Source: Flocculibacter collagenilyticus (GTDB lineage Bacteria > Pseudomonadota > Gammaproteobacteria > Enterobacterales > Alteromonadaceae). From it: 64,000 bases of DNA. Of the stretch, positions 62,168 to 63,036 are shown one piece after another (position 1 is the stretch's first letter; every line of letters starts with the position of its first letter). Below the pieces are notes generated by a model. The model worked only from the letters and a program-made list of their open reading frames with translations, had not been told where the DNA came from and searched no databases. The stretch is from NCBI RefSeq assembly GCF_016469335.1, contig NZ_CP059888.1, positions 2,294,001 to 2,358,000 on the forward strand. Reading direction: 5' to 3'. The translations under genes were made by a program, and so were the position numbers.

Positions 62168-62897
62168 TCAAGGCTTGTTGCTGGCAGAAACACTAACAAT
62201 CTTCCAAGACCCATTCTGTTTTGACCAAACTTGGGCACCACCACCCGCGCTATTAACAATCCTTCCATCGTGCAACTTCATGGATTGAATATATTCATTG
62301 ACTAGGGCGTGTTGACCTTTCGAGGTCATTTTTGCAGCAGTTTGTTTGTCATTTATACAAGACAGAGCAGGTAAAGTGTGGTTATTCCACACGCAACTGC
62401 GATAACGCAGTATAAATGGCAAACAAGCGCTGCCTTTGGGTTCATCTAAACGTTTCTTGCTCTTTGTTGTGACGCGCTTACCTGGAATAACCAAGCGACA
62501 CTTGTCACGCCGCGATCAAAAAACGTTTAGATTGAACAAAATTCGACCTAGAAAGGTCAACACGCCCTAATATGGCTGTATTTTGATCTATGACAGATAT
62601 TTTCACATTAGTAAATTTGAGAAGCGTGACTTCCTTTATAGATGAGAAGCCATTATTGATTATTGGCGATAAGTCTTCGATAGAGTTCCAGTTTGTTCCA
62701 TCACTGTTTAAGCCAACAAATTTGTGAGTATTGAAGTGTTCAAAGTAATGCGTTGCATCCAAGTCCTTAGATGCTTGAACAAGGCTTTGAAATGAAGCTA
62801 GCACCTCTTTTTTGATTTCTGTGTTATCTGAATTGGCGTGGGTGAGAAGTGAAAATAAAAGAGCACACAAGCTAATTATAAATTTGAGTTTTAACAA
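62168..62897 (-). pseudogene. SnoaL/NTF2-like secreted protein gene broken by a MITE
   Basis: The 5' part (62897 to 62570) encodes a signal peptide from a TTG start with AAGGAA just upstream (62897; product begins LLKLKFIISLCALLFSLLTHANS), then a SnoaL/NTF2-like fold (ASFQSLVQASKDLDATHYFEHF). The 3' part (62302 to 62168) encodes the rest, from VNEYIQSMKLHDGRIVN to GSWKIVSVSASNKP. The MITE at 62305-62567 separates them. Removing it with one TA copy joins DQNTAIL to VNEYIQ in frame. As it stands, translation runs into the MITE and stops, so the fold is incomplete. The family is periplasmic; role unknown. Confidence 0.87.
62305..62567. mobile_element. MITE with 25-bp inverted ends and TA duplication
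   Basis: A 263-bp non-coding element. The ends are near-perfect inverted repeats: GGGCGTGTTGACCTTTCGAG at 62305 against its complement ending at 62567, with 17 bp exact, then one mismatch and further matches to about 25 bp. It is flanked by TA on both sides (62303-62304 and 62568-62569), a target duplication typical of IS630/Tc1-type and some IS5-type transposases. It has no intact transposase and must be moved in trans. Removing it restores the host frame, which fixes the boundaries. Confidence 0.9.
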
Positions 62898-63036
62898 ATA
62901 AATTTCCTTTTCATGTGATATATAGCCGATAACTGCAGCAGACCTGTTGTTAATGACGTTGTGCAATGATGGCAGAGCCATTAAGAAATCAGTTAAAGTA
63001 ATTCCTTCCTATTGACGAGTAAGTCGTTCATATGTG

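Follow-up and report, generated by a model that had tools for sequence, protein, structure and literature searches.

The window analysed here, a 64,000-nt stretch of Flocculibacter collagenilyticus DNA (NZ_CP059888.1, positions 2,294,001 to 2,358,000), carries a minus-strand gene at 62168-62897 that is split by a 263-bp insert (62305-62567) lying between two TA dinucleotides. The gene is of the SnoaL_3/NTF2-like type, and the insert has the build of a non-autonomous DNA transposon (MITE) with a folded core. The features at the locus are as follows.

62168-62302, minus strand: C-terminal half and stop codon of the split SnoaL_3/NTF2-like gene, from the reading frame and homologue alignment.
62303-62327, plus strand: left terminal inverted repeat, beginning with the target-site TA (62303-62304), from end comparison.
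62305-62567, no strand: MITE body, 263 bp (267 bp with both TAs, 62303-62569).
62334-62433, plus strand: hairpin unit 1 (HP1), its wobble pattern favouring a plus-strand fold.
62440-62537, minus strand: hairpin unit 2 (HP2), a diverged inverted copy of unit 1, its wobble pattern favouring a minus-strand fold.
62505-62567, minus strand: element-encoded tail, 20 codons and a stop, in frame with the N-terminal half, from open-frame translation.
62545-62569, minus strand: right terminal inverted repeat, ending with the duplicated TA (62568-62569), from end comparison.
62570-62897, minus strand: N-terminal half of the split gene, with a signal-peptide-like start; the frame is also open to an ATG at 62981.

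The first-pass annotation of this stretch had proposed that a MITE splits the gene and that removing it repairs the frame exactly. In-silico removal of 62305-62567 plus one TA (265 bp) does leave one uninterrupted frame, of 154 codons, that ends at 62168, while the remaining two frames of the repaired gene contain many stops. The start codon is TTG at 62897 or, further upstream, ATG at 62981, and the frame is open from both. When both halves were aligned to three intact homologues of 136 to 154 residues from three other genera (L090, L091 and L092), the junction fell between residues 110 and 111, 91 and 92, and 99 and 100, respectively, with no gap or overlap between the N half and the C half. 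The intact homologues score above the Pfam cut-off for SnoaL_3. By themselves, the broken frames gave a weak CaMKII_AD match for the C half (E 0.038) and, in the domain search, no domain match for the N half; both fall below the SnoaL_3 cut-off, so the domain name depends on the homologues. Relatives that have the gene carry it unsplit, as shown by alignment for L090, L091 and L092 and by search for L093 and L094. Two different genes joined by chance are ruled out as the origin of the split, since both halves align end to end on the same three proteins. Together with an assembly error, which is at odds with a single contig from a genome 99.98% complete and with an insert belonging to a multicopy family with TA duplication, this explanation has a negligible chance of being correct. 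The truncated N half acquires a 20-residue tail from the element, with its stop codon at 62505-62507, as had been noted. We also observed a TTG-started open frame (62168-62494 of the window, minus strand) that runs from within the element into the C half, so that a fused C-terminal fragment is conceivable.

The stretch 62303-62569 reads TA, then GGGCGTGTTGACC...GGTCAACACGCCC, then TA. Its terminal inverted repeats are 25 nt long and 96% complementary, and at up to two mismatches the end motif occurs twice in the window against 0.08 occurrences expected by chance. The proposed TA duplication is upheld by the need to remove one TA for the repair and by the wider family, in which 105 of 129 full-length copies with both flanks are bordered by TA on each side. 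The base outside the TA is a pyrimidine on the left in 96 of these 105 and a purine on the right in 93, which gives the target YTAR. With terminal inverted repeats, a target-site duplication, multiple copies, no long frame of its own and ends in common with insertion sequences (IS), the element has the features of a MITE.

The first-pass annotation had suggested a search of the genome for further copies of the ends and for a full-length IS sharing them, and both searches succeeded. In this genome of 3.97 Mb (a single contig, 99.98% complete) there are eight full-length copies, the window copy included, seven of which are 94 to 100% identical; the remaining one is 326 bp long at 75% identity. 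The rest of the 33 genome matches listed are fragments, single ends or reverse matches of a near-palindromic element. The three copies nearest to the window copy are 99.6, 98.9 and 98.5% identical to it, which indicates that the family was recently active; the particular hop into the SnoaL_3-like gene would likewise be recent. When open frames were simply listed, the window copy was the only one with a clear gene split. Of the eight copies, four have no overlapping frame of at least 80 aa, two lie across short frames (129 aa and 86 aa), and another overlaps a frame by just 3 bp. Remnants consisting of ends alone also exist. One of them, a 36-bp end-to-end copy without a core (L034, C1:1120859-1120894), is flanked directly by the two arms of a terminator-like palindrome, GCCCTAC/GTAGGGC. 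Single element ends at C1:3392096 (L035) and C1:3448214 (L036) lie directly at apparent 3' gene ends, the end sequence coming after a stop codon, with no partner end nearby.

Scanning the genome for the end sequence uncovered two intact 881-bp IS with inverted ends TAGAGCGTGTTGATC, each encoding a 253-aa IS5-family transposase. The transposase carries DUF4096 and DDE_Tnp_1 domains, and one of the two scored 249.8 bits against the IS5 model NF033580 (cut-off 110). The left end of the MITE equals the right end of the resident IS at 26 of 32 bases, and the resident end TAGAGCGTGTTGATCTTT differs from the ISSod6 end TAGGGTCTGTTGATCTTT at three bases. Relatives of the resident transposase occur in 1,835 plasmid records; in the best 40 of these they are named IS5 family, ISSod6 or ISSpu10 wherever the feature is named. 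We inspected the IS ends in eight of the 1,835 records, ISSod6 included. All eight IS have ends with TGTTGATCTTT, one right end reading TGTTTATCTTT; the two bases that precede it are mostly variants also seen in the repeat, such as GGGTC(T), GGGCG(T), GGGGC(T) and AGGCC(T); and the distance from the left end to the transposase start is only about 83 to 95 nt. Repeat and IS occur together on two Pseudoalteromonas megaplasmids. YTAR is the typical target of the IS5 family. The trans-acting transposase had been recorded as unknown; an IS5-family transposase of the ISSod6/ISSpu10 kind, present here in two intact copies, is now a strong candidate for the mobilizer on sequence grounds, because ends and target are common to MITE and IS.

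The partner is usually absent from element-bearing genomes today, as judged from the model searches. NF033580 matched at E ≤ 0.001 in 9 of 28 such genomes and above the cut-off in only one, and PF01609 transposases were absent from three of five repeat-bearing genomes searched. A close relative of the transposase was found in 3 of 20 element-bearing genomes, F. collagenilyticus included, and is partial or interrupted in the other two. Across 1.54 Mb of scanned loci, end pairs 450 to 3,500 bp apart occurred only in the loci with the two resident IS; in repeat-bearing genomes, paired ends lie about 145 to 320 bp apart among the matches listed. The partner IS thus appears to come and go between genomes. 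A second kind of IS, with a PF01609 transposase (394-aa frame), lies at 224-940 of the window and has four copies in the genome.

The family extends well beyond Flocculibacter. The window element matched 20 of 59 genomes searched, its own included, spanning many genera of the family and order, its own being the sole genome of the genus in that set. L069, a copy found in a different family within the order, matched 91 of 295 genomes and 26 of 100 genera, again counting its own, although some of the weakest of these genome matches cover the ends only. The exact core pattern was found in at least 120 stretches, from Vibrio, Enterovibrio, Grimontia, Shewanella, Pseudoalteromonas, Psychromonas, Algicola, Colwellia, Thalassotalea, Alishewanella and Rheinheimera; searches of phages gave no match to the element. 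Of the 15 best plasmid places, 14 had no annotated feature beneath them. Six plasmid records were opened, three of them almost without a gene table, and the element was intergenic in all three with informative tables. Copy lengths peak at 266 to 269 bp, with minor classes at 279 to 283, 295 and 315 to 330 bp, and there are genome-specific end variants (for instance, GGGCCT in one genome, GGGCGT and GGGGCT in another). In genome G045, a length class of about 294 to 308 bp (L258-L261, L264 and L268) has an extra stem-like segment in unit 1, and some of these copies have one in unit 2 too, as if by template switching. In all, 143 copies were located and 129 unique ones with flanks were kept, of which 122 were clustered to 43 at less than 90% identity (mean identity among the 43, 0.70). 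Our 42-copy alignment consists of 41 of these 43 (two of 279 to 280 bp being omitted) and of the window copy, itself about 95% identical to one of the other members; a 27-copy alignment was picked from the copies first fetched. Four long copies (L191, L115, L103 and L181) were assigned the wrong strand by the profile model.

The core between the ends folds on its own. Without the ends, the window core has z -8.3 as RNA on the plus strand and z -6.4 as DNA on the minus strand. RNAalifold predicted 84 pairs from the 27 copies, 60 of them with double changes. The 64 internal pairs that appear in the fold of either strand alike, with the ends excluded, were tested on the 42 copies: 92.4% of cells were paired, against 35.5 to 41.7% in slid controls, and 52 of the 64 pairs had a double change. 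The covariation score was 0.442, compared with 0.136 for a shuffle control that ignores relatedness and 0.076 to 0.102 for slid controls that keep it. The tested structure was derived from the same 42 sequences, which is somewhat in its favour, but we judge the gap in covariation too large to be accounted for in that way. Conservation in the unpaired internal-loop columns is similar to that in the paired columns. On inspection by eye, core-site letters were not seen at the hairpin bases, and an integron attC site was rejected as a candidate.

The two halves of the core are related in inverted orientation. A profile of the right half, reversed, finds 41 of 42 left halves, and a profile of the left half detects 32 of the 42 right halves when these are reversed and none of the 42 when they are not, so the element consists of an end, a unit, a reversed unit and an end. 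Total fold energy, nearly equal on the two strands (-187.2 and -186.7), was dropped as a means of choosing between them. The wobble pairs carry an asymmetry: on the plus strand, unit 1 has 38 G-U against 14 A-C, and unit 2 has 8 G-U against 59 A-C, in counts that span related copies. Scored by pairs with ties omitted and relatedness ignored, the ratios are 15:5 in unit 1 (p 0.04) and 2:20 in unit 2 (p 0.0001). The simplest reading of this pattern is that unit 1 is kept foldable on the plus strand and unit 2 on the minus strand, in both cases the strand that is read inward from the unit's own side. A C-to-T mutation bias between strands could produce a similar asymmetry.

A subset of copies has further structure. 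Copies of about 300 to 330 bp, and one of 228 bp, contain two additional adjacent hairpins inside one unit, with the loops CA(U/A/C)GGAUG and GCAGGAGC on stems that vary. This insert has 18 occurrences, 11 of them distinct, and for four of these 18, located at contig edges or worn at their ends, our script did not detect both element ends. Long variants with the loop pair include L253 (about 460 to 510 of the locus), L222, L191, L103, L252-L257 and L269. The CsrA SELEX consensus is RUACARGGAUGU, with ACA and GGA invariant, according to the available text of PMC7652899. In sequence, loop 1 resembles this consensus and lies in paired stems, with ACA in 16 of the 18 occurrences and GCA in two. 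Read as CsrA-like, the hairpins would be on one strand and the favoured fold of their host unit on the other, an arrangement that a straightforward RNA model does not easily accommodate. Outside the element, the loop pair is found in 107 of 295 genomes (a reversed-pattern control matches in few), at some coding places and at others that resemble other repeats. Many genomes within the order have the pair as multicopy sequence beyond the element, G276, G131, G294 and G265 among them.

Our results are best explained by insertion of a MITE at YTAR through an IS5 transposase of the ISSod6/ISSpu10 kind, with a core that is not IS derived and is kept foldable, probably as RNA; we give this reading a probability of roughly 0.78. 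The MITE entered a YTAR target in the SnoaL_3-like gene, duplicating the TA and breaking the gene, and the transposase would act in trans by recognizing ends of the form TAGGGnnTGTTGAnCTTT. The core consists of two diverged inverted copies of one hairpin unit of about 110 nt, kept foldable by compensatory change across marine Vibrionales and Alteromonadales. Each unit may act as a folded RNA when transcription enters from its side; with such a unit on either side, the element would work alike in both orientations. A bolder version, in which the repeat is a mobile structured RNA family, two inverted copies of one device spread by ISSod6-type transposases and in some lineages armed with CsrA/RsmA-type binding hairpins, is doubtful.

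The most serious competing account keeps the fold but places its role in DNA, as a hairpin or cruciform recognized by the transposase or by a host protein, or as the product of template switching that corrects the quasipalindrome; RNA would then play no part. That the element folds equally well on both strands, that its two ends are symmetrical, as they would be if a single protein recognized both, and that pairs are restored by double changes are all consistent with it. Palindrome correction alone, however, predicts neither the opposite tolerance of G-U and A-C in the two halves nor loop columns about as conserved as paired ones, and we regard a DNA-level fold as possible but unlikely, noting that a strand-specific role in single-stranded DNA may be compatible with the data. 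The remaining accounts concern where the element came from and what moves it. Internal deletion of an ISSod6-like IS, the usual source of prokaryotic MITEs in the available text of PMC10969869, would fit ends that match the IS over 26 of 32 bases and would make the fold a by-product of inverted ends. The unit models, however, found nothing better than E 0.1 in 10 IS loci, where the ends alone match; the sequence before the transposase start in the eight inspected IS is too short to supply a hairpin unit; and the core folds and covaries without the ends, which leaves this origin very improbable. An equally poor prospect is a transposase from a different family that targets TA (IS630/Tc1-mariner). 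A TA duplication is characteristic of IS630 too, as with RUP in pneumococcus in the accessible text of PMC2229807, and most element-bearing genomes lack the IS5 partner, but the YTAR preference and the terminal sequence common to all eight IS5-type IS and the resident IS point to IS5.

Structured, TA-flanked and mostly intergenic repeats that are probably moved in trans are already known, among them ERIC, Correia and RUP, as described in the available portions of PMC10969869 and PMC2229807. The closest relation lies with the ISSod6/ISSpu10 group (IS5 family, NF033580), whose terminal inverted repeat TAGGGnnTGTTGATCTTT is like that of the repeat down to the variable two bases; unlike these IS, the repeat has no transposase and has a folded core that they lack. 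ERIC/IRU (RU-1), from enterobacteria and Vibrionaceae, is described in the portions available as having TA termini, inverted ends, a mostly intergenic location, folded transcripts and many copies. Its described dimensions, 127 bp (PMC2759123) with 7-bp ends (PMC2229807) in the text available, set it apart from a repeat of 267 bp with 25-bp ends that match IS5. Correia/NEMIS of Neisseria are likewise MITEs with TA termini and ends of about 24 bp, and their RNA is processed at the ends, but their host group and length are different and a two-unit inverted core is absent from their description in the available parts of PMC10969869 and PMC2229807. RUP of Streptococcus pneumoniae is a MITE paired to an IS through its ends and TA target, but its partner is IS630 and its length 107 bp (PMC2229807, text available in part). 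Rfam gave no match to the window stretch at E ≤ 1 and none at the gathering cut-off to 13 loci with copies. In literature on the end sequence, MITEs of these hosts, structured RNAs and ISSod6, surveyed mostly at title level, we found no description of the family, and this large family of marine bacteria is apparently undescribed.

The insertion into the SnoaL_3-like gene is an ordinary MITE event; the MITE family is unusual, structured and widespread, and its deep conservation and structure go beyond what the window sequence alone could show. Annotation stands to gain as well, since Rfam gave no match to the family and split genes like the one described here can be accounted for by its insertions. 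The named group of partner transposases makes mobilization in trans directly testable. If the reading of the long variants were true, a repeat bearing CsrA hairpins would be a transposable post-transcriptional regulator or a CsrA sponge. With a core that is not IS derived, built as an inverted dimer and conserved in length and fold over many genera, the family offers a clean case for the question of why RNA structure persists in bacterial MITEs.
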